From NCBI GenBank assembly GCA_022826665.1, contig JAJDUK010000063.1, positions 62,001 to 126,000 of the forward strand: a stretch of 64,000 bases of DNA, written 5' to 3'. The position numbers and the translations under genes are program-made. This document shows, one piece after another, positions 34,014 to 55,280 of this stretch (position 1 is the first letter of the stretch; every line of letters begins with the position of its first letter). Below the pieces are notes generated by a model. That model did not search any database and was not told the DNA's origin. It was given only the letters and a program-made list of their open reading frames with translations. Origin of the DNA: Alphaproteobacteria bacterium. Lineage in GTDB: Bacteria; Pseudomonadota; Alphaproteobacteria; UBA828.

Positions 34014-35360
34014 CTACAGCCACTCCACGTAGCGCGCGCGCTCGGTCTCGGGCACCTGGCGACGGAAGTCGTCGTACTCGTAGCGCTTGATCAGGACGTA
34101 GTTGCGGCAGAACTCCTCGCCGAACCAGTCCTTGGCCCAGTCGGATGCCTCGAACCTCGCAAGCGCTTCGCCCCAGTCGTCGGGCAGCCGGGTCACGTCC
34201 TGCTCGTCGAGGTCGCCCTCCGCCGGCGGGCCCGGATCGGTCTTGTTGGCGACACCGTCGAGGCCTGCTGCGAGATAGGCGGCAAGCGCGAGGTAGACGT
34301 TGACGTCGCCGCCGCAGACCCGGAGCTCCGGTCGTGTCGCGGCCGGGCCCTCGTTAATCAGGCGGATCGCGGCGGTGCGGTTGTCTACGCCCCAGGCGAG
34401 CGAAATCGGCGCGAAGGCGCCGGGCACGAGCCTGCGGTAGGAGTTCGAGTTGGGGAAGAAGACGGCGGTGAGCTCCGTGAGCCGGGCGAGCACGCCGCCC
34501 ATGAAGTGCCGGCAGGTGTCGTTGATGTGCTGCGGCTCGTCCGGCGCCGCGAAGGCGTTGTTGCCGTCGCCATCCACCAGCGACATGTGGATGTGGCAGG
34601 AGTTGCCGGTCATCTTGTCAAACGGCTTGGCCATGAAGGTGACGCGGCGGCCCATCTGCATCGCCGCCTCCTTCATGGTGGCGCGGAAGAGATGCCCGTC
34701 GTCGCCCATCTCGCGCACCGGGCGGTGACGGATACTCACCTCGTACTGGCCGGGGCCCCACTCGTAGTGGCTGCATTCGAGCTCGCCGTGGGCGGCGACC
34801 GCGTCGAGCAGCGAGTATTCCTCGGCGAGGAACTGGGTGCGCTTCTGCATCGAATAGCACTGCAGCCCGGAATCGAGCCTCTCGTGCTCGTCGTCGAGGA
34901 GGAAGAACTCGAACTCGGGCGCGCAGCGGGCGCCGTAACCCATTGCCTCCATGCGATTGGCGACCCGGTGCAGCACGTTGCGGGGCTCGCCTTCCACCAG
35001 CCGCCCGTCAGGCCATTTCATCGTGCCCATCACCAGCGCCGTGTCGGGCTCGTGGCGCAGAATGCGCATGCTGGAGAGGTCGGGCACGGCGATGAAATCG
35101 GCGTAGCCGATGTTCTCGCCGTAGTCGGTGCCCAATACCACGTTGGCAGAGATATCGAAGGCCATGACCGTGGCGCAGAAGGCGATGCCGTGGTGCATCG
35201 AGCGCTCGAAATGCGCGAGGTCCATCGCCTTGCCCCGGGCGACGCCACCGTAGTCGCAATACTCGATGCGGACGCGCTGGACACCGTTGGCGCGCAGCCA
35301 ATCCATGACCTGATCGCTCGTGCCCGTGAAGCGCACAGGGCCCGTTGCCGCCTCGCTCAT
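34014..35360 (-). CDS. Glutamine synthetase-like enzyme, gamma-glutamylpolyamine synthetase type
   Basis: A 448-residue member of the GlnA family, PuuA-like branch. The N-terminal beta-grasp domain includes RIEYCDYGGVARGKAMDLA; the catalytic domain has APEFEFFLLDDEHE, CSHYEWGPGQYEVSIRH (metal Glu ligands), GNSCHIHMSLVDGDGNN, NSYRRLVPGAFAPISLAWG and RVCGGDVNVYLALAAYLAAG. These resemble gamma-glutamyl-putrescine synthetase and related amine-glutamate ligases rather than true glutamine synthetase (no adenylylation Tyr loop seen). It probably ligates glutamate to an amine. ATG 35360; single gene. Confidence 0.9.
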   Translation of the reverse strand: MSEAATGPVRFTGTSDQVMDWLRANGVQRVRIEYCDYGGVARGKAMDLAHFERSMHHGIAFCATVMAFDISANVVLGTDYGENIGYADFIAVPDLSSMRILRHEPDTALVMGTMKWPDGRLVEGEPRNVLHRVANRMEAMGYGARCAPEFEFFLLDDEHERLDSGLQCYSMQKRTQFLAEEYSLLDAVAAHGELECSHYEWGPGQYEVSIRHRPVREMGDDGHLFRATMKEAAMQMGRRVTFMAKPFDKMTGNSCHIHMSLVDGDGNNAFAAPDEPQHINDTCRHFMGGVLARLTELTAVFFPNSNSYRRLVPGAFAPISLAWGVDNRTAAIRLINEGPAATRPELRVCGGDVNVYLALAAYLAAGLDGVANKTDPGPPAEGDLDEQDVTRLPDDWGEALARFEASDWAKDWFGEEFCRNYVLIKRYEYDDFRRQVPETERARYVEWL

Positions 35361-35526: not shown

Positions 35527-36639
35527 ATGCGTGGGATTGCGGTCGCTGCTCCTGGCGAGCGCACGGCCCGCGCGGGGCGTGGGATGCTGGCGCGCGTCGG
35601 GGCCGCAATGCGGTTACCGGCGCGCGCTTGTGCGCTGGGCGCGCTCGCAGGCCTTGCCGGTCTCGCCTGGCCGGCGGGGGACGCGCAGGCGGCGGACGAG
35701 CTGAACCTCTATTCCCACCGGCAGCCCTTCCTGATCGAGCCTTTCCTGCAGGCCTTCACAGCCGAGACCGGGATCGAGGTCAACGTGGTCTATGCCTCCA
35801 AGGGTCTCGCCCAGCGGCTCCAGGCCGAAGGCAAGAACAGCCCGGCCGACGTGGTGCTGACCGTGGATATCGGCAGGCTCGCCATCTATGCGGACAAGGA
35901 TCTGCTGGCGCCGGTCGAGTCCGCGGTGCTGACGGAGGCAGTGCCGGCGCATCTGCGCGACCCCGATGGGCGCTGGTTCGCGCTCTCCAAGCGGGCGCGG
36001 GTGATCGCGGTCTCCAAGGACCGCGTGCCCGCCGGTGCGATCACGACCTACGAGGACCTGGCGGACCCCGAATGGGCCGGGCTCGTCTGTTCGCGGCCCG
36101 GCAGCCACGTCTACAACAGGGCCATGATGGCCTCGATGATCGCCGCTCATGGGGAAGAAGGCGCGGAGGAGTGGGCCACTGGCCTCGTGGCCAACCTCGC
36201 TCGCAGGCCGCAAGGCAACGACCGGGCGCAGGTCAAGGCAATCTACGAGGGCCTCTGCGACGTCGCCCTGATTAACAGCTATTATTACGGCAAGCTCTCG
36301 TCCTCGGACATCGAGGCGCAGCGGGAGTGGGCCGCGTCCATGACCATGATCTTTCCCAATCAGGATGACCGTGGCACGCACATCAACATCTCCGGCGGCG
36401 GCGTTGCCAAGCACTCGAAGAACAAGGAGACGGCGGTGGCGTTCCTCGAATTCCTGACCAAGAGGGACGCACAAGAGCTCTACGGCGCCGTCAACTTCGA
36501 GTTTCCCGTGAATCTCGCCGTCGAGGCCGCCCCGGCGGTTCGTGCCTGGGGCACGTTCAAGGAAGACGCGCTGCCGATCGTGCGCATTGCCGAACTCGCA
36601 CCCGCTGCTCAACGCGTGATCGATCGCACCGGGTGGTAA
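35527..36639 (+). CDS. Iron(III)-type ABC transporter binding protein
   Basis: A 370-residue periplasmic binding protein of the FbpA/FutA (AfuA) family. The signal region is ARACALGALAGLAGLAWPAG with cleavage near AQA-ADE. The mature part begins DELNLYSHRQPFLIEPFLQ. The double-tyrosine motif NSYYYGKLSS near residue 260 is the ferric-ion ligand set of this family, and FPNQDDRGTHINISGGGVA is conserved. ATG 35527 has AGGGAGG upstream. The permease gene starts within its stop codon. Confidence 0.92.
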   Translation: MRGIAVAAPGERTARAGRGMLARVGAAMRLPARACALGALAGLAGLAWPAGDAQAADELNLYSHRQPFLIEPFLQAFTAETGIEVNVVYASKGLAQRLQAEGKNSPADVVLTVDIGRLAIYADKDLLAPVESAVLTEAVPAHLRDPDGRWFALSKRARVIAVSKDRVPAGAITTYEDLADPEWAGLVCSRPGSHVYNRAMMASMIAAHGEEGAEEWATGLVANLARRPQGNDRAQVKAIYEGLCDVALINSYYYGKLSSSDIEAQREWAASMTMIFPNQDDRGTHINISGGGVAKHSKNKETAVAFLEFLTKRDAQELYGAVNFEFPVNLAVEAAPAVRAWGTFKEDALPIVRIAELAPAAQRVIDRTGW

Positions 36640-38309
36640 GCCCTACGGCTACGCTGGCGCGCCGGGCTTACCTCGCCCGGCCGAATCGTTGGTTCGTCGC
36701 TGCGCTCGTGGTCGCGCTGATCATGGCGGCGCCGATCCTCTCGGTGCTCGCTGCCGCGACCGAGGATAGCGGCGGGCTCTGGGCGCACCTCTTCGAGACG
36801 GTACTGCCCCGCTACGTCGCGAACACGCTGGCACTCATGGCGGGAGTCGGCGGGCTCAGTCTGGTGCTGGGCGTGAGCACGGCCTGGGTGGTGACGCGCT
36901 ACGAGTTTCCCGGCCGCCGGGTGTTTGAATGGATGCTGGTGCTGCCCTTCGCCGTGCCGGCGTACCTCATCGCCTACGTCTACACCGACTTCCTCGATTA
37001 CGCCGGGCCGGTGCAGGGCGCGTTGCGCGATGCCTTCGGCTGGCAGACGCGGCGGGACTACTGGTTCCCCGAGATCCGCTCCATGGGCGGCGCCATCGTG
37101 GTGATGGGGGCGGTGCTCTACCCCTACGTCTACATGATGGCGCGGACGGCCTTCAAACTGACGCCGCACACGCTCTTCGAGATCGCGCGGGTGCATGACA
37201 GGGGCCTCTTCCGCACTGTCGGCCTGCCGCTGGCCAGGCCCGCCATCGCGGCTGGCCTCGCGCTCGTGCTGATGGAGACGGTCTCGGACTTCGGCACCGT
37301 GGACTACTTCGCGCTGGAGACGCTGACGCTCGGCATCTTCAACGTCTGGCTCGGTATGAACAGCCTGCCGGCGGCCGCGCAGATCGCCTCGCTGGGCTTC
37401 CTCTTCGTCATCGCGATGCTGGTGCTGGAGCTGATGTCACGTCGCCGCCGGCGCTACGTGGACACCGGCCGACGCATGCGGAGCCTCGCGCGGCTGCGCG
37501 CTGGGCCGGCGCAGACGGCGGCCTGCCTCGCCGTGTGCCTGCTGCCGGTGACGGTAGGATTTCTCATTCCCGTGGGCGTGCTGCTCAGCTTCGTGGTCAA
37601 GGGTTACGCGCTGCCCGATTACGGCGGCGTGCTGACGGTCACGCTCAACTCGGTGGTCGTGGCGCTCGCCGTGGCTGCGCTGGTGATGGCGGCTGCGGCG
37701 CTGATGGTGGTCACCGTCGCCTACCGGCCGAGCCGCCCGCTTACGGTGCTGGCTGGTGTCGCGTCCTCTGGCTATGCCTTCCCCGGCACGATCCTCGCCA
37801 TCGGCGTCGTCACCTTCGCCGGTGCGGTGGATCGCGGGCTCGACGGCCTGATTTCGGGCGTGATGGGGCTTTCGTTCGATGGTTTCCTTACCGGCGGGAT
37901 CGGGCTCGTGCTGTTTGCCTGCATGGTGCGCTTCCAGGCGATCGGCTACGGCGCGCTGACGTCGGGCATGAACCGCCTGCCGCCCAATACGGTGTCGGCC
38001 GGCCGGGTTCTGGGCCTGAGCCTGCCGGCCAATCTCTTCCGCGTGATCCTGCCATTGCTCGGCACCTCGTTCCTCGCCGGCGGACTCTTGGTGTTCGTCG
38101 ACGTGATGAAGGAGCTGCCGATGACGCTCCTGCTCCGCCCCTTCGGCTTCGATACGCTGGCAACCCACCTCTACCAGTTCGCCAAGGACGAGCTCTTGGA
38201 GCAGGCGGCGGTGCCGGCGCTCCTCATCGTGCTGGCCGGCACCGGGCCCGTGATCCTGATGAACGAAGCCCTAAGACGCTTAGGCGAGGGGCGCGCTGGG
38301 ACGAGGTGA
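36633..38309 (+). CDS. Iron(III)-type ABC transporter permease, fused two-half protein
   Basis: A 558-residue permease of the FbpB/SfuB family, which carries two copies of the six-helix permease domain in one chain. The first half ends near LGMNSLPAAAQIASLGFLFV; the second starts near LAVCLLPVTVGFLIPVGVLL. EAA-type loops occur in both halves (IARVHDRGLFRTVGLPLARP and AGRVLGLSLPANLFRVILPL). GTG 36633 overlaps the binding-protein stop. No ATPase gene follows; the next genes are on the opposite strand. The importer must use an ATPase encoded elsewhere. Confidence 0.9.
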   Translation: MVSPTATLARRAYLARPNRWFVAALVVALIMAAPILSVLAAATEDSGGLWAHLFETVLPRYVANTLALMAGVGGLSLVLGVSTAWVVTRYEFPGRRVFEWMLVLPFAVPAYLIAYVYTDFLDYAGPVQGALRDAFGWQTRRDYWFPEIRSMGGAIVVMGAVLYPYVYMMARTAFKLTPHTLFEIARVHDRGLFRTVGLPLARPAIAAGLALVLMETVSDFGTVDYFALETLTLGIFNVWLGMNSLPAAAQIASLGFLFVIAMLVLELMSRRRRRYVDTGRRMRSLARLRAGPAQTAACLAVCLLPVTVGFLIPVGVLLSFVVKGYALPDYGGVLTVTLNSVVVALAVAALVMAAAALMVVTVAYRPSRPLTVLAGVASSGYAFPGTILAIGVVTFAGAVDRGLDGLISGVMGLSFDGFLTGGIGLVLFACMVRFQAIGYGALTSGMNRLPPNTVSAGRVLGLSLPANLFRVILPLLGTSFLAGGLLVFVDVMKELPMTLLLRPFGFDTLATHLYQFAKDELLEQAAVPALLIVLAGTGPVILMNEALRRLGEGRAGTR

Positions 38310-38361: not shown

Positions 38362-38745
38362 TCAGCGGTTAGTCTTGATGCCAGATTTCTGAATTTCAAT
38401 GTGTATGCGTTTATCGGCCCTTTCTTGCGCTAAATTCCACTCGAATTCTATTAGGCCAATCGCTGCCGCGACACGTTTTTCTGCGCCTGCATAGTCACAA
38501 CGCAAGTGAATTCGACTGAGTTTTCTGAATCTCGCTCTTCTACCACGGGGAATTCTGGGTGCGATTCTCTTGAAGTCGCCATCGTGACTAATCAATACTG
38601 CCTCTATATGCTCTGCAAACTTCGCAACAACAGGGTCGGGAGAGTCTGGAGGAAGTTCATCCCTCAGACGTACTACTTCGTGCCCTCTCCGTTCTAAGAC
38701 TTGGCACACCGACTCCGTTACATTGTGATCAGCGAAAAACCTCAT
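38362..38745 (-). CDS. DUF5615 PIN-like protein, probable toxin
   Basis: A 127-residue protein opening MRFFADHNVTESVCQVLE, with the HEVVRLRDELP and AVLISHDGDFKRIAPRIP segments of the DUF5615 PIN-like family. PIN-type acidic residues are visible (Asp6, Asp-x-Asp in HDGDF). Such proteins are paired with DUF433 proteins and are predicted VapC-like nucleases. The coding region has clearly lower GC and more AT-ending codons than its surroundings, a sign of transfer. The DUF433 gene lies 14 bases upstream. Toxin activity is inferred from the pairing. Confidence 0.8.
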   Translation of the reverse strand: MRFFADHNVTESVCQVLERRGHEVVRLRDELPPDSPDPVVAKFAEHIEAVLISHDGDFKRIAPRIPRGRRARFRKLSRIHLRCDYAGAEKRVAAAIGLIEFEWNLAQERADKRIHIEIQKSGIKTNR

Positions 38746-38759
38746 TTGGATGGATGGTG

Positions 38760-39404
38760 TTAGGCAGCTGACTTAGTTTTTTGTCGCACGGCTTCGACGT
38801 CTTGCAGCTCCAAAGATGGATATTCGTTGAGAATAGCTTGATTGCTGTAGTCCGCTTGAATAAAGCTGGCAATGGCAGATACGGGGATTCTGGTCCCAGA
38901 GATTACTTCCGTGTTGTGTTGAACAAACTTGCGCTTCTCAGTTCGTCCAACTTTGGAGCCATCGCGATAACGGAGCTTATTCGCTCTCTCTCTCACCTCT
39001 TGCGCGATTGGTTGGAGCGGAATATGCTTCAGCGCATATTGCCCATCAGTTACATTCCGGGGATTCGAATCAAGATCGAACACTACTTTGTGCTTTAGAA
39101 CCGCAAGCGGAATTGCTGACCAGGGACGATCCGAGCGATTCTTCAGTTCCTCTGCAGCTTTGCGAAGTTCTCTGAGCGGGACTCTATGCACATCAGAAAG
39201 TATTTTCAGTGTCCGAAGTCCTACAAGATCCACGAAAGAGTAGACGCGAGCATAGGGATTGTGGCGGTTGTCATCCCCAATATATTCTGGGGGAAAGAAC
39301 CCGAGACGATCCCACCTTGCCAGTCGAGCCTTTGACAAGCCTGTAATCTGCGCAACGTGATCGACACAGAATGCCGACAGCACACTTTCGTCTGACCGGG
39401 TCAC
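38760..39404 (-). CDS. DUF433 protein with MerR-like N-terminus, probable antitoxin
   Basis: A 214-residue protein. The N-terminal part (VDHVAQITGLSKARLARWDR, GFFPPEYIGDD) resembles a MerR-type winged helix, and the C-terminal third is a DUF433 domain (ISGTRIPVSAIASFIQADYS, ILNEYPSLELQDVEAV). The pairing with DUF5615 downstream is a recurrent predicted toxin-antitoxin arrangement. GTG 39404 follows GGGAGG. GC is low relative to the neighbourhood. It probably represses its own operon through the N-terminal domain; no operator was identified. Confidence 0.82.
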   Translation of the reverse strand: MTRSDESVLSAFCVDHVAQITGLSKARLARWDRLGFFPPEYIGDDNRHNPYARVYSFVDLVGLRTLKILSDVHRVPLRELRKAAEELKNRSDRPWSAIPLAVLKHKVVFDLDSNPRNVTDGQYALKHIPLQPIAQEVRERANKLRYRDGSKVGRTEKRKFVQHNTEVISGTRIPVSAIASFIQADYSNQAILNEYPSLELQDVEAVRQKTKSAA

Positions 39405-39695: not shown

Positions 39696-41975
39696 CTAGC
39701 CGTCGCCCCCCGGCAGCGGGCCGGCCTTCACGAACGCGTTCAGCACGTTGGCGGTGACCCTCGATGCGCTGTTGTCGCAGGCGTTGATGGGGAGCGCTTG
39801 GCCCCAGGCGATGGAGCTTGCGGACCACACCGCGCCGTCGTTCGGCGTCGTGAAGTAGGTCATGTCCGCGCGGATGCGGTGGTCCTGGGTGCCGCCCATG
39901 CCGGGGTAGTTGCAGAGGATGTCCTCGACCACCAGGGGGAAGTTGTCCGAATGGCCCTCGGATGAGGCGAGGATCAGCGTGTGCGGGGGCGTGCCGAGCG
40001 TCAGGTCGTAGCGGTCGAACTCGATGCCCGCAGCACCGCCCACGGCCAGCCCCTCATCGCCGATGATGTCGCCGTCGATGCCCTCGAAGATCCAGGCGGC
40101 GGCGGGATTTTCGGCATCGGGCATCTTGCGGTAGGGCTTGGACTCGTCCATGCCCTCGGAGGTGAAGCCGGTGCCCACGAGTTTTTGGGGCGCCCGCCCG
40201 CGCCCGCGCCAGAGGCCGCCGCGCTCCCCGTTGCTCACCATGTAGTGCTCGCCGGGCTCGGCGTTCCAGGACCGCGTGCCTAGGTCGAGGCGGCGGACCT
40301 CCATCACGTTCATGTCGTCCGCGCGGAAGGAGACCACCCAGTAGTAGCCGTTGCCGGAGAGGTACATGAGCCTGCCGCCGGACGCGAGATAGTCCTCGGT
40401 CGCGTCCATCATGGCCTCGGAGTAGTACTCGGCGTGGGTGGCGTTGATGACGACGTTGTAGGGCTCGAGGCAGGCCAGCCCCTCCTGGTGCAGGTCCTCG
40501 TCGGTGATGACGTCGTAGTCGTAGCCCATGGTCTCGAGCCAATAGATGACCGAGAGGTCGGCCGGGAACTGCCACGGCACGACCGTGGGCGCCATGCGGT
40601 GCCTGGGCCGCATGTTGAAGATCGGCCGGAGCCGGGTGGTGTAGCAGACGCCGGCGCCGTCCCGGTGGCTGTCGTAGCAGGAGAGGCCGTATTCCCGCCG
40701 CTGCCTGAGCGCCAGATCCCACTCGTGGATGACCGTCACCTGGCTGCTCAGCACCTGAGCCATGCCGGTGTCGAGGCCGATGCGCTCGTTGGCATAGGCG
40801 AGGTAGCTGCAGGTGGGCATCAGCATTGCGATGGGAGCCGAGGGCTCCTTCGGCCGGAGGAAGAAGACCACGTGCTCCTCCGCATCGCCCGCCCGGAGCC
40901 GGGCCGCGTAGACGCCGCTCTTCGCGTCCGGCACCTCCATGGAGATGGTCGGCTGCCAGCCGCAATCGGCCAGCGCATCCTCGTGGAACTCGATGCCGCC
41001 GAACTGATCAGGCGCGTAACGGAAGCAGTCCTCGTGGCCGCTCCAGTTGAAGCCGGTCATGCCCCGCACCGGCCGGTTGACGCCCTGGCCGTGGAGGCCG
41101 TGGGGGCCGGCGTCGACGACCGTGTCGCCGATGCCGGTTTCGCTATAGCCGGCAGTGGTGTCCCAGGCGGTGATGACGGCGTCGGTCGCGGGCGCGCCGC
41201 CCGCCTCCCGTGCGCGGTCGAGCGCGTCGCGGTTTAGCACGGAGCCTGCGACGCCCGCGCGGTCGATCTTGCCGTTGTAGAGCTGGCTCGCGAAGGCGCC
41301 CCGCTCCCCGAAACGGTCTTGGGTCGCAGCCCAGAAAAAGTCAGCGTCTGCCGCAGCGGGGTTCACTTCGAGCCGCGCGCTCAGGTGGCAGGAGCGCGGC
41401 AGCGGCACGATCTTGGAGAGGAGGTTGTTGTAGCGGTTCTCGATGGGCTCCTGATAGAGCGTGGCCTCGCCGCTCGCCGGGTCGTAGGAGGCCGCGACCA
41501 GGTACCACTGGCGCGCGATCAGCGGAATGTCGGCCTCGAGCACTCCCGTGATGTCGCCGTTGCCCAACTGGAACTCGAGCGCACCGCTCTCTGCGATGCT
41601 GAGCGCGTAGCCACGACCGTCGGCGATGGACCAGCGGGTGAGGATGCCCTGGCGGCTATCGTCAGGCGTCCGGGGCCAGATGTAGGCCCAGAGGGTGAAG
41701 GGACCACTCGTGGCAAGCCGGCCATCCGGGTCCGCGACGCGGACGAAGCTCCCGAGCTGCGTGTGTTGCCGGGCCACGGCGTGCGTTCCGTTCACCGGCG
41801 CATCCACCTCGCGCTCGACGAAGCCGGGTCCCTCCGGGTTCTCGTCGCCGTGGATCAGGCGCACGAGCTGGAGCTCGACCCGGTCCGTGCCCTCGGCGTT
41901 CACCATGATGTCGAGCCGCTCGCCCGGCCGCGCACTGAAGCGGTCGCAGTAGCCCGCCAGGTGAATCTCTGCCAT
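39696..41975 (-). CDS. N,N-dimethylformamidase-type large subunit
   Basis: A 759-residue protein matching the large (beta) subunit of N,N-dimethylformamidase, which hydrolyses dimethylformamide to dimethylamine and formate. Residues about 75-250 form a lectin-like (LamG) sandwich; the C-terminal two thirds are the catalytic part. From memory of the Paracoccus enzyme, iron is held by two tyrosines and one glutamate with a nearby histidine. Here the matching positions are Tyr394 in CSYLAYANE, Tyr434 in LSCYDSH, and His514/Glu516 in NATHAEYYS, at nearly the same spacing. ATG 41975 has GGGGGAAGAG. The small subunit gene lies 18 bases upstream. The natural substrate may be another formamide. Confidence 0.88.
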   Translation of the reverse strand: MAEIHLAGYCDRFSARPGERLDIMVNAEGTDRVELQLVRLIHGDENPEGPGFVEREVDAPVNGTHAVARQHTQLGSFVRVADPDGRLATSGPFTLWAYIWPRTPDDSRQGILTRWSIADGRGYALSIAESGALEFQLGNGDITGVLEADIPLIARQWYLVAASYDPASGEATLYQEPIENRYNNLLSKIVPLPRSCHLSARLEVNPAAADADFFWAATQDRFGERGAFASQLYNGKIDRAGVAGSVLNRDALDRAREAGGAPATDAVITAWDTTAGYSETGIGDTVVDAGPHGLHGQGVNRPVRGMTGFNWSGHEDCFRYAPDQFGGIEFHEDALADCGWQPTISMEVPDAKSGVYAARLRAGDAEEHVVFFLRPKEPSAPIAMLMPTCSYLAYANERIGLDTGMAQVLSSQVTVIHEWDLALRQRREYGLSCYDSHRDGAGVCYTTRLRPIFNMRPRHRMAPTVVPWQFPADLSVIYWLETMGYDYDVITDEDLHQEGLACLEPYNVVINATHAEYYSEAMMDATEDYLASGGRLMYLSGNGYYWVVSFRADDMNVMEVRRLDLGTRSWNAEPGEHYMVSNGERGGLWRGRGRAPQKLVGTGFTSEGMDESKPYRKMPDAENPAAAWIFEGIDGDIIGDEGLAVGGAAGIEFDRYDLTLGTPPHTLILASSEGHSDNFPLVVEDILCNYPGMGGTQDHRIRADMTYFTTPNDGAVWSASSIAWGQALPINACDNSASRVTANVLNAFVKAGPLPGGDG

Positions 41976-41993
41976 CGCTCTTCCCCCCGGCCC

Positions 41994-42362
41994 TCAGGCG
42001 TCGCTCGCCATCAGCGCGTCCACCCGCATGAGGAAGACCGCGTGGAGCGCCTCGTTCTTGTCGGTGTAGACGGTGCCGTCCACGTCCCGGGGCAGGCCGC
42101 CCTGCTGCGCCGTGGTGGTCACGATCTTGTACTTGCGGTTGGCCTCAAGCTCGAACAGCACGTACTTGCCCTCGAAGGGCCCGCGCCGGAAGTAGTTGAG
42201 CACGCGCTCCAGATCGCCCGAATGCTGGCCGAGCGGGCTTGCGCGGTACTCCTCGATGAGCGCCGGCGTGATGAGCGTTCTGAGATGCGCGCGCAGCTGC
42301 CTGTCGAAGCGCCGCTGGTAGACCTTGTCCCTGTCGTGATGGGCGGCTGTCTCGCCTGCCAT
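41994..42362 (-). CDS. N,N-dimethylformamidase-type small subunit
   Basis: A 122-residue helical protein with many charged residues (RRFDRQLRAHLRTLITPAL, LGQHSGDLERVLNYFRRGP, GKYVLFELEANRKYKIV). Its size (about 14 kDa) and its position just upstream of the large-subunit gene match the alpha subunit of dimethylformamidase, which completes the alpha-beta assembly. ATG 42362 is preceded by AGGAGG. No catalytic residue is expected in this chain. The identification leans on gene order as well as sequence. Confidence 0.85.
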   Translation of the reverse strand: MAGETAAHHDRDKVYQRRFDRQLRAHLRTLITPALIEEYRASPLGQHSGDLERVLNYFRRGPFEGKYVLFELEANRKYKIVTTTAQQGGLPRDVDGTVYTDKNEALHAVFLMRVDALMASDA

Positions 42363-42487: not shown

Positions 42488-43357
42488 ATGAAAGAGTTGG
42501 GCAAGCGCGGGGTGTGGATATTCCCGGATGCGCCATCGGCGCGCGAGGTCGCGAGCTTTGCGCAGGCGGCGGAAGGCCTGGGCTACGACGCGCTCTGGTA
42601 TCCCGAGGGCACGGGCTTCGAGAGCCTGAGCTTCGCCGCCTTCGTACTGTCGGAGACGGAGCGGCTCTGCGCCGCGAGCGGCATCGCCAACATCTATGCG
42701 CGGGACGCGGTGGCTGCCATTTCCGGCCACGACACCCTCAACCATTTCTATGGCGACCGCTTCGTGCTTGGGCTCGGCGTCTCGCACGTGCCGCTGGTGG
42801 AGGGTTTCCGCGGGCATAGCTACGCCAAGCCCGTGGCGACCATGCGCGCCTACCTCGACGCCATGGATGCCGCCGAAGTGGCCATCCCTGCGCAGGAGCG
42901 GAACGTCGTGCTCGCCGCGCTTGGGCCCCGGATGCTGGCGCTGGCTGCCGAGCGCACGCGGGGCGCGCATCCCTACAACGTGACGCCGGAGCACACCGCG
43001 CGTGCCCGCGAGATCGTGGGGCCGGACGCCTGGCTCTGCGTCGAACAGAAGGTCTGCGTCACCAACGAGGCATCGACGGCCCGCGACGTGGCGGCGCAGA
43101 CCCTCGGCATCTACATGCCGCTCACGAACTACCGCAACAACTGGCTCAGCCTCGGCTTCGGCGAGGACGAGCTGGGCGAGCGGGGCAGCGACCGTTTCCT
43201 CGATGCCATGGTCGTCTGGGGCAAGCCCGAGACCGTGCGTGCGCGGATCAGGGAGCACTTCGATGCCGGCGCGAGCCACGTCTGCATCCAGCCTCTCGAT
43301 CCCGACGGCAGCACGGCGCCCGACTTGAACGCAGTCGAGGCCCTCGCCGCACTCTGA
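42488..43357 (+). CDS. LLM-class flavin-dependent oxidoreductase (TIGR03620-like)
   Basis: A 289-residue luciferase-like protein. It opens GKRGVWIFPDAPSAREVASF and contains the family barrel landmarks AAEGLGYDALWYPEG, ASGIANIYARDAVAAI and FVLGLGVSHVPLVEGFRG, as in the TIGR03620 group of flavin- or F420-dependent enzymes. The cofactor cannot be told. ATG 42488 is chosen with GGGGAGCAACGAGG upstream. It is divergent from the dimethylformamidase genes and precedes a TPP enzyme on the same strand; together they may oxidise a small acid or amine. Confidence 0.87.
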   Translation: MKELGKRGVWIFPDAPSAREVASFAQAAEGLGYDALWYPEGTGFESLSFAAFVLSETERLCAASGIANIYARDAVAAISGHDTLNHFYGDRFVLGLGVSHVPLVEGFRGHSYAKPVATMRAYLDAMDAAEVAIPAQERNVVLAALGPRMLALAAERTRGAHPYNVTPEHTARAREIVGPDAWLCVEQKVCVTNEASTARDVAAQTLGIYMPLTNYRNNWLSLGFGEDELGERGSDRFLDAMVVWGKPETVRARIREHFDAGASHVCIQPLDPDGSTAPDLNAVEALAAL

Positions 43358-43441
43358 ACGCTCGACGGACGCGCCTCTGCGCCCCATTCCGGGGCAATGA
43401 ACGCGCTCGACCAACAGAATAGTGGACTTGGGGAGGCCAGC

Positions 43442-45094
43442 ATGACCGGCGCCGATCTCTTGGTGAAAATCCTGAAGGCGGAAGGGGTCCGCCAGTGCCT
43501 CTGCTTCCCCATGACCCCGATCATCGAGGCCATGGCGCGCGCCGGCTTGCGCGTCATCACCACGCGGCAGGAGCGCGTTGCCGGCAACATGGCGGACGGC
43601 GTCTCGCGCTCCACCGACGGCCGCGAGATCGGCGTTTTCACGGTCCAGGCGCTGGCGGGGTCGGAGAACGCGTTTGCCGGCGTCGCCCAGGCGCACACGG
43701 ATTCGTCGCCGGTGCTCTTCCTCCCCGGCCACCCCGGCACGTCCTATGTGGATCAGCCGCCCACCTTCGACAGCAAGGCCAATTACGCCGCCACCACGAA
43801 GATGGCGCAGAAGGTGCTGGCTGCCGACCACATGCCGATCAAGCTGCGCCAGGCCTTCACGGCGCTCCGCTCCGGCCGGCCGCAGCCGGTGATGCTGGAG
43901 CTGCTGGGCGATGCGTGCGCGGGCGAGGTAAATGGTGCGCCCGAGTACGCGCCAGTCAGGCGCATGCGCTCCGCGGCCGACGAGGGGGCGGTGCGGGAGG
44001 CGGCCCAGCGCCTGCTCGCGGCCGAGACGCCCATGATCTGGGCCGGCCAGGGCGTACTCTGGGCCGAGGCGAGTGACGAGCTACGCGAGGTCGCGGAGCT
44101 GCTCGGCGCGCCTGCGATGACGACGCTGCAGGGCAAGAGCGCGATCCCCGAGGCGCACCCGCTGGCTGCGGGCGTGGGCGCGCTATCAACCACCGCCATG
44201 GCCGCCCACTATTTGCAGACGAGCGACTGCGTGCTCGCCGTGGGCTCCAGCCTGACTCGCGCGCCCTTCACGCCGGCGATTCCTGACGGCAAGACCATCA
44301 TCCACGCGACCGTGGACCCCATCGACATCAACAAGGAATATGCCGCCGCCGTCGGCATCGTGGCCGACGCCAAGCTGTTCCTCGCGCAGCTCGCCGCCGA
44401 GCTCAGGCGCCACGTGGGCGATGGCCGCGCGGAACAGCGCGCCGAGACTGCGGAGGCCATCGCCCGCATCAAGGGCGAGTGGCACGCCGAGTACGAGCCG
44501 CTCTTCGCCGACGATTCGGCGCCGATCAACGGCTACCGCATGATGCGCGAGCTCTGGTCCGTGCTGGACCCGGAGACCACCATGCTCACCCACGAATCCG
44601 GTGCGTCGCGGGACATCCAGAGCGTCTTCTACGAGTCCGGCCCGCCGCGCAGCTACCTGGGCTGGGGCCAGTCCTCGCAGCTCGGCTTCTCCCTCGGCCT
44701 CGCCATGGGCGCGAAGCTCGCGAATCCCGGCAAGCTGGTGGTGAACGTCATGGGCGACGCCTCGGTGGGCATGACCGGGATGGACTGGGAGACCGCGTCC
44801 CGCAACGACATCCCGATCCTCACCGTGATCAAGCACGATTCGATCTTCTCGGGCTACGACCGCAACATCCCCGAGGCCTCGGCGCGCTTCGAGGCGAACC
44901 GGCAGCAGGGCGACTACGCGACCATCGCGGCGAGCCTAGGCTGCCACGCCGAGACGGTGACCGAGCCGGCGGCGCTCAGGCCCGCACTGGAGAACGCGAT
45001 CCGCGCGACCCGCGAAGGCCAGCCGGCGGTGGTGGACGTCATCACCGCCGAGACCCGCAAGCTCTCCCGCCTCGCGCCGACCTCGATCGGCTGA
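43442..45094 (+). CDS. Thiamine pyrophosphate-dependent enzyme, acetolactate synthase-like
   Basis: A 550-residue TPP enzyme of the acetolactate synthase / benzoylformate decarboxylase fold. The catalytic Glu is in TTRQERVAGNMADG near residue 50; the middle domain includes PMIWAGQGVLWAEASDEL; the TPP-binding motif is VNVMGDASVGMTGMDWETAS. The usual GDG is GDA here, an accepted variant. A short insertion-free length is normal. The reaction is a decarboxylation or carboligation of a 2-oxoacid; the substrate is unknown. ATG 43442 has GGGGAGG upstream. The SDR genes follow on the same strand. Confidence 0.88.
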   Translation: MTGADLLVKILKAEGVRQCLCFPMTPIIEAMARAGLRVITTRQERVAGNMADGVSRSTDGREIGVFTVQALAGSENAFAGVAQAHTDSSPVLFLPGHPGTSYVDQPPTFDSKANYAATTKMAQKVLAADHMPIKLRQAFTALRSGRPQPVMLELLGDACAGEVNGAPEYAPVRRMRSAADEGAVREAAQRLLAAETPMIWAGQGVLWAEASDELREVAELLGAPAMTTLQGKSAIPEAHPLAAGVGALSTTAMAAHYLQTSDCVLAVGSSLTRAPFTPAIPDGKTIIHATVDPIDINKEYAAAVGIVADAKLFLAQLAAELRRHVGDGRAEQRAETAEAIARIKGEWHAEYEPLFADDSAPINGYRMMRELWSVLDPETTMLTHESGASRDIQSVFYESGPPRSYLGWGQSSQLGFSLGLAMGAKLANPGKLVVNVMGDASVGMTGMDWETASRNDIPILTVIKHDSIFSGYDRNIPEASARFEANRQQGDYATIAASLGCHAETVTEPAALRPALENAIRATREGQPAVVDVITAETRKLSRLAPTSIG

Positions 45095-45162: not shown

Positions 45163-45924
45163 ATGGGAAGGCTGAACGACAAGGTCGCAGTGGTGACCGG
45201 CGGCTCGCGCGGCATCGGCGCCGCCATCGCGCGGCGCTTCGGTGCGGAGGGTGCGCGCGTGACGGTGGTCTACCGGGCGGCGGCCGAGGCTGCGGACGAG
45301 GTCGTGGCGGGAATCAAGGCTGCCGGAGGCGAGGCCACCGCCATCCGCTGCGACGTGACGCAGACCAAGGCGTGCGCGGACATGGCGGAGGACGTGGCCG
45401 CGGCATTCGGCGGCGCCGACATCCTCGTCAACAATGCGGGCATTCACCTGCTGACGGACCTCGGCCAGACCACCGAGGACCAGTGGGACCGGCAGATGGA
45501 CACCAACGTCAAGGGTGCCTACTTCGCAGCTCAGGCGCTGCTGCCGCAGATGAGGGCCCGCGGCGGCGGCAAGATCATCAACATCGGCTCGATCGCAGGC
45601 GAGACCGGAATCCCCGCCTCGGCCGTCTACTGCGCCACCAAGGGCGCGATCAAGCTGATGACCAAGTCGCTCGCGCTCGACCTGCGTCCGCACAACATTC
45701 AGGTGAACAGCCTCTCGCCCGGCTGCGTCGCGACGGATATGAACGCCCGCTACCGGGTCGAAATCGAGGGCTATGCCGAATCCCTGCAGGGCCGCTTCGG
45801 GCCGGGCGATCCGTGGATGACGCCCGACGACATGGCGGGCACCGCCCTCTATCTGGCGTCCTCGGATTCCGATACGGTCACCGGCGCCAACATCATGGTG
45901 GACAAAGGCTATTCCGCCTACTGA
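45163..45924 (+). CDS. SDR-family oxidoreductase, first tandem copy
   Basis: A 253-residue classical short-chain dehydrogenase. The NAD(P) motif is VVTGGSRGIGAAIARRF, the NNAG motif lies in DILVNNAGIHLL, and the catalytic Ser-Tyr-Lys are in IINIGSIAGETGIPASAVYCATKGAIKL (read as Ser, then Tyr-x-x-x-Lys). MGRLNDKVAV is the start (ATG 45163). It is closely related to the next gene, and part of the two genes is identical in DNA. It probably reduces or oxidises the product of the adjacent TPP enzyme. Confidence 0.92.
   Translation: MGRLNDKVAVVTGGSRGIGAAIARRFGAEGARVTVVYRAAAEAADEVVAGIKAAGGEATAIRCDVTQTKACADMAEDVAAAFGGADILVNNAGIHLLTDLGQTTEDQWDRQMDTNVKGAYFAAQALLPQMRARGGGKIINIGSIAGETGIPASAVYCATKGAIKLMTKSLALDLRPHNIQVNSLSPGCVATDMNARYRVEIEGYAESLQGRFGPGDPWMTPDDMAGTALYLASSDSDTVTGANIMVDKGYSAY
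45555..45686 (+). repeat. 132-bp perfect duplicate inside SDR copy 1
   Basis: This segment of the first SDR gene is identical base for base to 46377-46508 of the second. It covers the catalytic serine, tyrosine and lysine. The flanking parts of the two genes differ at many positions. Confidence 0.8.
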
Positions 45925-45984
45925 CCCGCTCGGCAAGAATGCGAATTGGCCGGGACGCCGGCGCAACCAGGGGACGAGACAACG

Positions 45985-46746
45985 ATGGGTAGGCTGAACG
46001 ACAAGGTGGCAGTGGTGACAGGCGGCTCACGCGGTATCGGCGCCGCCATCGCGCGCCGTTTCGGTGCGGAGGGCGCGCGCGTCGCCGTGGTCTACAAGGC
46101 GGCGGCCGAGGCCGCAGACGAGGTCGTGGCCGACGTCAAGGCCGCCGGCAGCGAGGCCACCGCCATCCGCTGCGACGTGGCGCAGACGCAGGACTGCAAC
46201 GCCATGGCGGACGCCGTGGCGGCGGCCTTCGGCGGTGCCGACATCCTCGTGAACAACGCGGGCATCTACCTGCTGACGATGCCGGGCGAGACCAGCGAGG
46301 ACGAGTGGGACAACCAGATGAACACCAACGTCAAGGGCGCCTACTTCGCCGCCCAGGCGTTGCTGCCGCAGATGATGGCCCGCGGCGGCGGCAAGATCAT
46401 CAACATCGGCTCGATCGCAGGCGAGACCGGAATCCCCGCCTCGGCCGTCTACTGCGCCACCAAGGGCGCGATCAAGCTGATGACCAAGTCGCTCGCGCTC
46501 GACCTGCGCCCCCACAACATCCAGGTGAACAGCCTCTCGCCGGGCTGCGTCGAATCCGACATGAACGCCGGCTACCGGGCCGAGCTGCAGGAATTCATGG
46601 ATGCGCTGCAGGGCCGCTTCGGCGTCGGCAATCCGTGGATGGTGCCGGACGACATGGCAGGTACCGCCGTTTATCTGGCGTCCTCCGATTCGGACACCGT
46701 CACGGGCGCCAACGTCATGGTGGACAACGGCTATTCGGCGTTTTGA
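45985..46746 (+). CDS. SDR-family oxidoreductase, second tandem copy
   Basis: A 253-residue paralogue of the preceding gene, starting with the same ten residues (ATG 45985). The NAD(P), NNAG and catalytic motifs are all kept; differences cluster in the substrate-facing parts (GIYLLTMPGETSEDEWDN, YRAELQEFMDALQGRFG versus the first copy). A stretch of 132 bases (46377-46508) is identical to 45555-45686 of the first copy, suggesting recent gene conversion. The two enzymes may have slightly different substrates. Confidence 0.92.
   Translation: MGRLNDKVAVVTGGSRGIGAAIARRFGAEGARVAVVYKAAAEAADEVVADVKAAGSEATAIRCDVAQTQDCNAMADAVAAAFGGADILVNNAGIYLLTMPGETSEDEWDNQMNTNVKGAYFAAQALLPQMMARGGGKIINIGSIAGETGIPASAVYCATKGAIKLMTKSLALDLRPHNIQVNSLSPGCVESDMNAGYRAELQEFMDALQGRFGVGNPWMVPDDMAGTAVYLASSDSDTVTGANVMVDNGYSAF
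46377..46508 (+). repeat. 132-bp perfect duplicate inside SDR copy 2
   Basis: Partner of the segment at 45555-45686, at a fixed offset of 822 bases, equal to the spacing of the two genes. It marks gene conversion or strong conservation of the catalytic core. Confidence 0.8.
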
Positions 46747-49153: not shown

Positions 49154-50947
49154 CTACGCCGCCCGGCGCTCGCCCCTGAGCGTCTCGGTCGCCGCGAGGT
49201 CCACGGCGCGCTCTTCTGGGTCGATTACGACGCCGTAAGATGTCCGCGCCTCCTCGACAGAGATGTAGTCGTCGAGAACGTCGTCCAGCACCTGCTCCAC
49301 CGGGCGGGCCATAGGGTCGCCCCAACCGCCGCCGCCGCCGGTCTCGATGCGGAAGGCCTCGCCCGGCGCGAAACGATAGGCGGCGAGCAGCGGGTTGTGC
49401 CACGCGCCGTCGTCCGCCAGACCGCCGATCACCTCCGCGGAACCGTCGGGCAGGAGCTTGCAAAGCCGCTGCGCCCTGCTTTCCTGCCCGCCCTCGACGC
49501 CGGGGCTGCCCGCGAGGGTCCGTGAGGTCTCGATGCTGAGCTCGGCGTTGCCGTTGAAGCGGAACTGCAGCCTGGCGCCGAGCCCGCCCCGATGCGTGCC
49601 GGGCCCTGCCGAATCCTGCCGCAGGTCGAACGCCTCGTAGACGATGGGGTAGCAGAGCTCGGCCACCTCCGCCGAGAGGTTCATGCAGTTGCCGGTGGGG
49701 TCGAAGCGGACGCTGGCGCCGTCCATGTCGTTCATGCCGCCCCAGCCGCCGGCGGGCAGGTCGGAGAACACGGTCTGGCGCCGGGTCTCGGGGTCGGTCA
49801 CCGCGCAGACCAGCCAGTTCACGTCCGACATGGTGCCGCCGGTCGCGTCCTGCGGCATGGCCTGGCTCATCGCCAGCCAGATCGAGCTGTTGATCTTGGC
49901 GGCCGTCACGGTGGTGCAGCCGATGGTGGGCGCAGGCCACTTGGCGTTGAGCCAGCAATCGTCCGGCAGGACGATGTCGACGGCATCGAACAGGCCGGCG
50001 TTGGCCGGCGCCTCCGGGCAGAGGTAGAAGCGCAGCGCCAGATAGGTGGCGGAGAACGTGTTGGCGAGCGGCGAGTTGATCGCGCCGACGCATTGCGGGT
50101 CCGACCCGGTGAAGTCGACGGTCATCTTCTCGCCTTCGACGACGATCTTCACGGCGAGCTTGATGGGCTCCTCGCTGAAACCGTCGGTGTCGACGAAGTC
50201 GGTCACCGCGTATTCGCCGTCGGGGATCGCCTCGATGCGGCTGCGGCTGATGCGATTGGTGTAGGCGATCAACTCGCGCATGGCGATTTCGACCGTCTCC
50301 AGGCCGTAGCGGGCAACCCCGCGGCTGAACTCCTGCTCGGCCACCTTCAGCGCCCCCATGTGGGCCTGAATATCGCCCTCGATGTATTCCGGGCAGCGCG
50401 TGTTGTTCTTGATCAGCGCCAGCAGGTCCTGGTTCATCTCGTATTCGTTGAAGAGCTTGAGCGGCGGGATGCGCAGCCCTTCGCCCGCGATATGCGTGCC
50501 GAAGGACTGCCCGCCAGCCGCCCCGCCGCCGAGGTCCTGCCAGTGCCCCCGGCTCACGGCAAAGCCAAGCAGCTTCTCGTCGCTGAAGATCGGCATCGTG
50601 AAGGTGGTGTCGGGAATGTGCGTCCCGCCCTGGAAGGGATCGTTCAGGACCACCACGTCGCCGGGGCGGAGCGACTCCTTGCCGTATTTGTTGACCGATT
50701 CCTGGGCGGCGAAGTGCATCGCTGCCATGTGGATCGGGCAGCCCGGCGATTGCGAGACGAGGCGGATGTCCGCGTCGTAGACGGCGTTGGAGTAGTCGAG
50801 AATGTCGCTCAGGATCGGCGAGAACGCGGTCTTCTGCAGCACCTTGCTCATGCGCTCGCAGCAGAAATCGAAGTGGCTGCGCAGGACCTCGAAGGTCACC
50901 GGATCGAGATCCCTGATCTCCGAGGCGTTGCGTCTGACTGCATCCAT
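49154..50947 (-). CDS. hyuB: Hydantoinase/oxoprolinase B-type subunit, left pair
   Basis: A 597-residue HyuB-family protein. Landmarks are LDPVTFEVLRSHFDFCCERM at the N-terminus, VVLNDPFQGGTHIPDTTFTM with metal-binding His and Asp, and the Gly-rich ETGGGGGWGDPMARPVEQVL at the C-terminus. Together with HyuA it forms an ATP-dependent enzyme that opens hydantoins, 5-oxoproline or carboxylates ketones. ATG 50947. It lies 20 bases downstream of the hyuA gene and 27 bases upstream of the molybdoenzyme gene. Confidence 0.9.
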   Translation of the reverse strand: MDAVRRNASEIRDLDPVTFEVLRSHFDFCCERMSKVLQKTAFSPILSDILDYSNAVYDADIRLVSQSPGCPIHMAAMHFAAQESVNKYGKESLRPGDVVVLNDPFQGGTHIPDTTFTMPIFSDEKLLGFAVSRGHWQDLGGGAAGGQSFGTHIAGEGLRIPPLKLFNEYEMNQDLLALIKNNTRCPEYIEGDIQAHMGALKVAEQEFSRGVARYGLETVEIAMRELIAYTNRISRSRIEAIPDGEYAVTDFVDTDGFSEEPIKLAVKIVVEGEKMTVDFTGSDPQCVGAINSPLANTFSATYLALRFYLCPEAPANAGLFDAVDIVLPDDCWLNAKWPAPTIGCTTVTAAKINSSIWLAMSQAMPQDATGGTMSDVNWLVCAVTDPETRRQTVFSDLPAGGWGGMNDMDGASVRFDPTGNCMNLSAEVAELCYPIVYEAFDLRQDSAGPGTHRGGLGARLQFRFNGNAELSIETSRTLAGSPGVEGGQESRAQRLCKLLPDGSAEVIGGLADDGAWHNPLLAAYRFAPGEAFRIETGGGGGWGDPMARPVEQVLDDVLDDYISVEEARTSYGVVIDPEERAVDLAATETLRGERRAA

Positions 50948-50967
50948 GGCCTTGATCCCTTGAGCGC

Positions 50968-52998
50968 TCAGGCGGCGCCATCCAGTGCGATCAACAAGTT
51001 GCCGCCGCGGTCCACCGATGCCTGCGTGCCCGGCGGCAGGACGGTCTCCGAATGATCGTACTCTACAATGGCGGGGCCGGTGATGGCGACGCCGGGGTAG
51101 AGCCGCTCGCCGGCGTAGATTGCGACATCGTGCCAGGACCCGCCGAAGTAGACCGGCCGCGTGCCGCGCTCGACCTCGGCAGCAGCGTCTGCCTCGGCTC
51201 CATGGATGGTCGGGCGCGCGAACGCGCCCGCGGCGGTGACGCCGATGCTGACGAACTCCGACGGGAAGGTCGGCGACTTGACCCCGTGCTCGGCTTCGTG
51301 GGCGTTGTGGAAGGCTTCCGCGAGTTCCTGCGCCCGGTCGGCCGAGAGCTGGCCGTCACCGAGCGGCGTCAGTACCTCCCAGAACTGGCCGACATAGCGC
51401 ATCTGGGCGTGGCGCGAGAGCATCATCCCGGCGTCCGCGATGCCGTCTCGCGCGAGCAGCGCCCGGCCCTGACGTTCGAGCCCGGCGTACATCTGGTTGA
51501 GCCGGTCGAAATCCGCCTCGTTCACGGGGGCGTAGTAGAACTCCTCCAGGTCGTGGCGAATGTCCATGGCGGTCGCGCCGAAGGCCGAGGCGACGCCGGC
51601 ATGGGCCGGAACCACGATGCGGGGGATGTTCATCGCACGCGCGATCTGGCAGGCGTGCATCGGGCCCGCGCCGCCGAAGCTCGCGAGCACGAAGTCGCGC
51701 GGGTCGCGCCCGCGATCGGTCAGCACGAGCTTGATCGCTTGCGCCATGTTCTCGCAGGTGATCGAGATGATCGCTTCGGCCGCCTCCAATCGGTCGATGC
51801 CCAGCCGGTCGGCGATCCGGCTCACGGCGCGCTCTGCAGCGTCGACGTCGAGGGTTAGCTTGCCGCCGAGGGTGGCGTCCAGCCGGCCGAGAACGAAGTT
51901 CGCGTCCGTGACCGTCGCCTCGGCGCCGCCCCGGTCGTAACACGCAGGTCCGGGATCGGAGCCCGCGCTCTGCGGCCCGACACGCAGCGAGCCACCCTTG
52001 TCGACCCAGGCGATCGAGCCGCCTCCGGCTCCGACGCTCCGGATATCCAGCATCGGGATGGTGATCGGCACTTCCCATTCGAGCTGGTAGTCGTGGGTGA
52101 GCAGCCCCTCGCCGTGATCGACGATGGACGCGTCGAAGGTCGTGCCTCCCATGTCGGTGTGGATGATATTGGAGAACTCGGTGGTCTGGCTCAGGTAGCG
52201 GGCGTAGGCGACGCCGCCGGCTGGCCCCGATTCCACCAGCTCCTCGGGCCGCTCGATCGCGAGATCGACGCCCATCATGCCGCCGTTGCTCTTCAGCGCG
52301 AGCAACGAGCCGGAGAAGCCGTTGTCGCCGAGCCCGGCCGCGAGCCGGTTGAAATAGCTGGTCATTACCGGGAGCAGCGCGGCGCGTACCACCGTGGTGG
52401 AGAAGCGCCCGTGCTCCCGGAACTTCCTCACCGTCTCGGATGAGAGTGCGACGTGGCAGTCGGGATATTCCTCCAGCAGGATGTCGCGCATCCGGGCTTC
52501 GTGCCGCCCGTCCACGTAGGCATTGATGAAGCAGATCGCGATCGACTGCGCGCCCCGCTCCCTGATCTGGCGCGCGACTTGGCGGGCCTCCTCGTCGTCG
52601 AAGGGGCTCAGGTCCTCGCCCGCAGCGGAGAGCCGGCATCCCAGCGTGAAGCGCAGGCGCCGGGGCACGATGGGCGTGGGCCGCTTCTGGCGCAGCGCGA
52701 ACAGGTGCTGTCGGCGCTGACGCCCGATCTCGATGACGTCGCGGAAGCCCTCCGTCGTGACCATGGCAACCGGCGGGTAGCTGCGCTCGACCAGGGCGTT
52801 GGTCGCGGTCGTCGTGCCGTGCACAAGCACGCTGATCTCAGCCGGGGCGATCGCGGCCGCCTCCAGCGCGTTCAGCACGCCCACGGAGCGGTCGCCGGCG
52901 GTGGTCAGCACCTTCGCCGAGATCGTCTCGCCGCTCTCTCCGTTCGCCGCGAAGAGGTCGGTGAAGGTTCCTCCAACGTCAATTCCGACGTGCCACAT
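50968..52998 (-). CDS. hyuA: Hydantoinase/oxoprolinase A-type subunit, left pair
   Basis: A 676-residue HyuA-family protein with an ASKHA-type ATPase fold. It starts MWHVGIDVGGTFTDLFA, has LVHGTTTATNALVERS, HTDMGGTTFDASIVDHGEG, SVGAGGGSIAWVDKGG and ASFGGAGPMHACQIAR, all family hallmarks. It supplies ATP-dependent substrate activation to HyuB. ATG 52998 is used, a GTG one codon earlier is an alternative. Its promoter would lie in the 200 bases shared with the divergent right-hand hyuA gene. Confidence 0.9.
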   Translation of the reverse strand: MWHVGIDVGGTFTDLFAANGESGETISAKVLTTAGDRSVGVLNALEAAAIAPAEISVLVHGTTTATNALVERSYPPVAMVTTEGFRDVIEIGRQRRQHLFALRQKRPTPIVPRRLRFTLGCRLSAAGEDLSPFDDEEARQVARQIRERGAQSIAICFINAYVDGRHEARMRDILLEEYPDCHVALSSETVRKFREHGRFSTTVVRAALLPVMTSYFNRLAAGLGDNGFSGSLLALKSNGGMMGVDLAIERPEELVESGPAGGVAYARYLSQTTEFSNIIHTDMGGTTFDASIVDHGEGLLTHDYQLEWEVPITIPMLDIRSVGAGGGSIAWVDKGGSLRVGPQSAGSDPGPACYDRGGAEATVTDANFVLGRLDATLGGKLTLDVDAAERAVSRIADRLGIDRLEAAEAIISITCENMAQAIKLVLTDRGRDPRDFVLASFGGAGPMHACQIARAMNIPRIVVPAHAGVASAFGATAMDIRHDLEEFYYAPVNEADFDRLNQMYAGLERQGRALLARDGIADAGMMLSRHAQMRYVGQFWEVLTPLGDGQLSADRAQELAEAFHNAHEAEHGVKSPTFPSEFVSIGVTAAGAFARPTIHGAEADAAAEVERGTRPVYFGGSWHDVAIYAGERLYPGVAITGPAIVEYDHSETVLPPGTQASVDRGGNLLIALDGAA

Positions 52999-53202
52999 CA
53001 CGCTAGTCCCGGTGGGTCGATGGATCGTGAGAACCGGTCGAAGACAGCCTGGTCGAGAACGGAGCCCGGCAGCGCTTGCCGAAGAGGCCGTATTTCTAGC
53101 GGATCGCCGGCTTCACGGAAATATCGGCTGGCCCACAGATGACCTCGGCAAGGGTCATGTGATAGAGACATGGCGGCAGTTGAACGCGTTGGGAGAGACT
53201 TC

Positions 53203-55269: not shown

Positions 55270-55280
55270 GGGAGCGAGAC

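Follow-up and report, generated by a model that had tools for sequence, protein, structure and literature searches.

A dimethylformamidase-type gene pair

The window, the 64,000-nucleotide stretch of alphaproteobacterial DNA analysed here, contains on its minus strand two adjacent genes related to the subunits of dimethylformamidase (DMFase), with the gene of the small subunit (P0002) located upstream of that of the large subunit (P0001). Genes of a flavin-type oxidoreductase and of a TPP enzyme are found next to the pair on the opposite strand. The four genes are:

41994..42362, minus strand: DMFase-family small (beta) subunit of 122 amino acids, identified by a phmmer match to 6lvb_B and by its alignment with the small subunits, fused or free, that relatives encode
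39696..41975, minus strand: DMFase-family large (alpha) subunit of 759 amino acids with the Pfam domain DMFA2_C, identified by phmmer, PF20254 and the comparison of an AlphaFold2 model with 6lvb
42488..43357, plus strand: LLM-class F420/flavin oxidoreductase (TIGR03620), divergently transcribed, assigned by family match and synteny
43397..45094, plus strand: TPP enzyme (PRK06154), assigned by family match and by synteny beside the LLM gene in the genus

In phmmer searches, the large subunit matches 6lvb_A of the Paracoccus DMFase over residues 1-755, nearly its full length, with an E-value of 1.4e-190, and the small subunit matches 6lvb_B over residues 7-119 with an E-value of 5e-11. The large subunit is 42% identical to its Paracoccus counterpart and scores 314.1 bits against DMFA2_C (PF20254), for which the curated cut-off is 27; the small subunit finds no family match in Pfam or NCBIfam. 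Comparison of the large-subunit gene with orthologues of the genus yields dN/dS values of 0.17-0.28, indicative of purifying selection. The full-length match to 6lvb is far above chance, and, as judged from their sequences, the two genes are an intact two-gene representative of the DMFase family, and thus a new addition to a family already known. A complete DMFase-type enzyme with adjacent subunits had been proposed in the initial sequence-only reading, which is borne out by the matches to both chains of 6lvb and by the distance of 18 bases between the open reading frames; the strand had been left unstated.

The fold of the large subunit was predicted with AlphaFold2 from an alignment of 25 sequences, resulting in a model with a mean pLDDT of 76 and a pTM of 0.80. 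Its closest relative of known structure is 6lvb (TM 0.91; Z 36.2, 699 residues aligned, rmsd 2.8), followed by 8huy, an acylase of N-acetyl-(R)-beta-phenylalanine (Z 32.4, 33% identity). The structure-based comparison with the Paracoccus enzyme, which had been suggested as a check, thus agrees at the level of the fold, and the combination of Ig-like, pentraxin-like and ThuA-like domains that characterizes the family is recovered, with pentraxin structures matching residues 73-313. Since fold comparisons define ranges only, the residue correspondence described below is based on sequence alignments. The loops surrounding the active site (residues 563-611, 645-662 and 673-703) have pLDDT values below 50, so that the shape of the pocket is unreadable from the model.

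Predicted iron site and pocket gate

In the Paracoccus DMFase, Fe(III) is coordinated by Tyr399, Tyr440 and Glu521, whereas His519, at a distance of about 3.5 Å from the iron, is essential but non-coordinating (PMC7686228). Asn547 and Glu657 are equally essential, and the pocket is constricted by Phe693, a residue contributed by the adjacent large subunit (PMC7686228). Our alignment places the respective codons of the window enzyme, all on the minus strand, as follows:

40794..40796: Tyr394, predicted Fe(III) ligand (Paracoccus Tyr399)
40674..40676: Tyr434, predicted Fe(III) ligand (Paracoccus Tyr440)
40434..40436: His514, essential non-ligand in Paracoccus (His519), from alignment and PMC7686228
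40428..40430: Glu516, predicted Fe(III) ligand (Paracoccus Glu521)
40350..40352: Asn542, predicted oxyanion stabiliser (Paracoccus Asn547)
40020..40022: Glu652, predicted catalytic base (Paracoccus Glu657)
39912..39914: Cys688, at the site of the pocket-gating Phe693 of Paracoccus, from alignment and PMC7686228

All six residues that define the site by mutation or coordination are thus retained. The four iron-site residues named previously were located at the correct positions, and the assignment of Tyr394, Tyr434 and Glu516 as ligands agrees with the alignment. Conversely, His514 had been counted among the ligands, at odds with the non-coordinating role of His519 (PMC7686228), and the catalytic residues Asn542 and Glu652, although present, had been omitted.

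The Phe at the gate of the pocket is absent from the window enzyme, where its place is taken by Cys688. This Cys is constant in the orthologues of the genus, and a Phe is found in the nearest relative outside of it (L010, Gemmatimonadales, 65% identity). The replacement suggests that the window enzyme probably has a wider pocket than the Paracoccus DMFase and that its substrate is probably not DMF, with the reservation that Phe693 is a trait of the sole solved DMFase whose requirement is unproved. As evidence on substrate size, this single substitution is weak.

We infer metal content, assembly, catalysis and substrate class of the window pair. The protein would probably form an alpha2-beta2 assembly containing a mononuclear Fe(III), which, held by Tyr394, Tyr434 and Glu516, would act as Lewis acid. 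A metal-bound water is expected to attack the carbonyl carbon, with Glu652 serving as base and with assistance of His514 and of Asn542, which would stabilize the oxyanion; the substrate would thereby be split into an amine and a carboxylic acid, perhaps formate. A stabilizing role and a share in the pocket entrance are expected of the small subunit; in Paracoccus, the large subunit shows no activity unless its small partner is present (PMC7686228). Cys688 would reach into the pocket from the neighbouring large subunit.

Gene neighbourhood, paralogues and relatives

The LLM and TPP genes adjoin the pair in all six loci of the genus that were examined, whereas two SDRs, a molybdoenzyme and orthologous hydantoinase-type genes are found in only two of them (L008 and L011). 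The flavin enzyme, TPP enzyme and molybdoenzyme had all been listed as neighbours in the initial reading, and the first two are the ones that are maintained. The closest relatives of known structure of the TPP enzyme are glyoxylate carboligase and 2-hydroxyacyl-CoA lyase. A pathway composed of the LLM and TPP enzymes, the SDRs, the molybdoenzyme and the hydantoinase pair was considered and rejected, since within the genus none but the LLM and TPP genes are always present, and since the homologues of these two elsewhere are untied to DMFase genes in the stretches examined. No substrate-specific neighbour gene was found near the pair.

Other features of the window were noted on either side of these genes. 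At 35584-38309, on the other side of the pair, the genes of an Fe(III)-binding protein of the FbpA/FutA type, for which FbpA 1q35 is the best match (E 2.7e-89), and of the permease beside it represent an importer that is shared with some members of the genus (L008, L009, L011); we remark on the coincidence of an Fe(III) importer close to an iron enzyme and offer no interpretation. Between importer and pair (38362-39404) are DUF5615 (PIN-like) and DUF433/MerR-like genes resembling a toxin-antitoxin pair. Two very similar SDR genes are arranged in tandem at 45163-46746, and two gene pairs of the hydantoinase/oxoprolinase A/B type are located on opposite strands at 49154-57221.

The genome contains six DMFA2_C genes including the copy in the window, and in a sample of 387 genomes from its class, 86 have at least one such gene. 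The five paralogues are 39-43% identical to the window protein in blastp comparisons. In quick trees, for which branch support was obtained from SH-aLRT only, the window protein groups with the Paracoccus DMFase and with mostly proteobacterial relatives that are 50-65% identical to it, and its five paralogues fall elsewhere; this placement is stable after removal of long-branch rows. The grouping speaks for an Fe(III) amide hydrolase of the DMFase type, and the position beside the true DMFase counts against a non-DMF substrate.

A small-subunit-like gene adjoins the paralogues L002, L004, L005 and L006 but not L003. In L004 (L078:9518-14108, C103 of the same genome), the small and large subunits are followed by the alpha subunit of a nitrile hydratase with the metal motif CTLCSC and by N- and C-terminal parts of its beta subunit, suggesting a route from nitrile via amide to acid that employs a DMFase-type amidase. 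L005 is preceded by its small subunit and an MttB-type methyltransferase, and L002 has, besides its small subunit, a dihydropyrimidinase-like amidohydrolase further along. In the case of L006 (L080:3800-14000, C100 of the same genome), a Liv-type ABC transporter, the small and large subunits, a Rieske-like protein (assigned by eye, with no Pfam match), a 101-residue protein and a Sel1-like protein form a block that is common to Methylobacterium, Pseudomonas, Salinisphaera and others. These varied contexts suggest that the six diverged copies are specialised for different amides.

In a sister clade, the open reading frame of a LivM permease continues in frame, with no intervening stop codon, into that of the DMFase small subunit in eleven named loci, and further cases were found in L137, L149 and L150 and in matches from genomes G022, G723 and G783. 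Several relatives additionally encode a second large subunit:

LivM-small subunit fusions: L015, L016, L018, L019, L021, L022, L024-L028 (e.g. L026:6078-7637)
Second large subunits, encoded with an intact copy: L021:12776-15097, L022:12724-15045, L023:3488-5809, L028:12824-15145, L027:9956-12322

The fusion junction follows the consensus KGGEVMPEEATEI, with an invariant Gly-Gly, Pro, Glu-Ala and Glu. As the junction is conserved and in L022 contains no Met, the sequences make a true fusion appear much more likely than two separate genes. The small subunit of the window aligns from the junction onward and is encoded by a free gene, and no fused version was seen in the family of the window organism. 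A search of the transporter-enzyme literature outside most subscription journals found no report of this permease fusion.

In L021, L022, L023 and L028, the second large subunit carries a Cys at the position of Tyr440 and Ala or Gly at that of Glu657, and in one copy of L027 Tyr399 is replaced by Phe, His519 by Arg and Glu657 by Ala. Several of these loci contain two small subunits, one of them fused to LivM. Since the Paracoccus enzyme loses its activity through either of the mutations Y440A and E657A (PMC7686228), the second large subunits are predicted to be inactive partners of the intact copy. These unusual features belong to the relatives and not to the window enzyme.

Substrate preference and relation to known systems

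Membership in the DMFase family does not imply activity towards DMF, as illustrated by AceAB, which hydrolyses acetamiprid but not DMF (PMC11573777), by the DmfA2 homologue of P. aminophilus pAMI5 (40% identity), which has no link to the use of DMF (PMC4543880), and by the acylase 8huy. With 42% identity and an altered gate, the window enzyme is therefore not callable a DMF hydrolase. The name dimethylformamidase, as used in the sequence-only reading, is thus appropriate for the family but, in light of AceAB, the P. aminophilus homologue and Cys688, not for the likely activity; its choice to keep the substrate open was right. We consider it probable, at about 0.8, that the pair constitutes a heteromeric Fe(III) amide hydrolase of the DMFase family, whose physiological substrate is probably not DMF but some other N-substituted formamide or an amide.

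Three more specific proposals were weighed. The complete site, the clustering with the Paracoccus DMFase among the sequences compared and an FmdA-type formamidase/acetamidase gene in the genome would all fit a functional dimethylformamidase or N-methylformamidase, with a small N-methylated formamide as best natural substrate that is converted to formate and a methylamine. Such a role is nevertheless unlikely in view of Cys688 in place of Phe693, the P. aminophilus homologue without link to DMF use and the neighbour genes examined, among which no gene for the oxidation of dimethylamine or methylamine was recognised. A role as methylamine ligase was not supported for the glutamine synthetase-like gene at 34014-35360, since ordinary glutamine synthetases score better, and its better match to the latter also argues against this proposal. 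Instead of removing formyl groups, the enzyme might cleave N-acyl (for example N-acetyl) amino acids or amines in the manner of 8huy, a relative of the same fold which demonstrates that the scaffold accepts C-substituted amides and whose gate is also occupied by a residue other than Phe (His in one alignment, Ser in the pairwise alignment). However, 8huy resides on a long and distant branch and the window protein has its closer relative in the Paracoccus enzyme, with its specificity for formamides, so that this activity is improbable; a literature search on the acylase and on homarine catabolism returned nothing useful.

The constant neighbours suggest a further proposal, in which the pair would act on an N-formyl or ring-cleavage product of the LLM oxidoreductase, with the TPP enzyme operating later in the same pathway. 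Besides the adjacency in all six genus loci, it is favoured by three relatives from the Gammaproteobacteria (L014, L017 and L043; LLM read from the L017 sequence) in which a different LLM gene comes after that of the DMFase-type enzyme. Yet in the stretches examined from other genera of the family, orthologues of the LLM enzyme (60-71% identity) are located away from DMFase-type genes, a TPP homologue with 66% identity (G145) adjoins an amidase-signature-like gene with neither an LLM nor a DMFase gene nearby, and the adjacency may equally reflect inherited synteny. We thus regard a shared pathway as having little likelihood, and maintain the assignment as Fe(III) amide hydrolase with a probable substrate other than DMF.

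With DMF introduced no earlier than 1893 (PMC7686228), the question arises which natural role is served by this unusual family of Fe(III) amidases with a Tyr2-Glu site. Tentatively, and with more doubt than confidence, the family may be viewed as a broad natural amide-salvage family that is often tied to import. The sister clade would then hydrolyse its substrate at the membrane upon entry, with the beta subunit covalently built into the permease of an ABC importer, some genomes would pair a dead with an active alpha subunit, and the window enzyme would represent the soluble, unfused form with its own non-DMF substrate. The six diverged copies in one genome and the importer-built small subunits of the relatives offer concrete systems for the search for natural substrates.

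Among known systems, DmfA1A2 of Paracoccus sp. DMF (6lvb) shares with the window pair its two subunits, homology over the full length, the Fe(III) ligands and catalytic residues and the three-domain fold of the large subunit, but differs in its limited sequence identity, in Phe693 at the gate and in its dmfR-type LuxR regulator gene, no equivalent of which was recognised beside the window pair. The acetamiprid amidase AceAB of Pigmentiphaga sp. D-2, likened here by description, is likewise a two-subunit enzyme reported as DMFase-like and is distinguished by its substrate. The acylase 8huy has the same large-subunit fold and the same Tyr/Tyr/Glu/His/Asn/Glu positions but is only 33-35% identical, belongs to a distant branch and acts on an N-acetyl amino acid. 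Finally, the five DMFA2_C paralogues of the same genome are members of the same family that differ in their contexts, which include a nitrile hydratase, an MttB-type methyltransferase, a Liv-type ABC transporter and a dihydropyrimidinase-like amidohydrolase.
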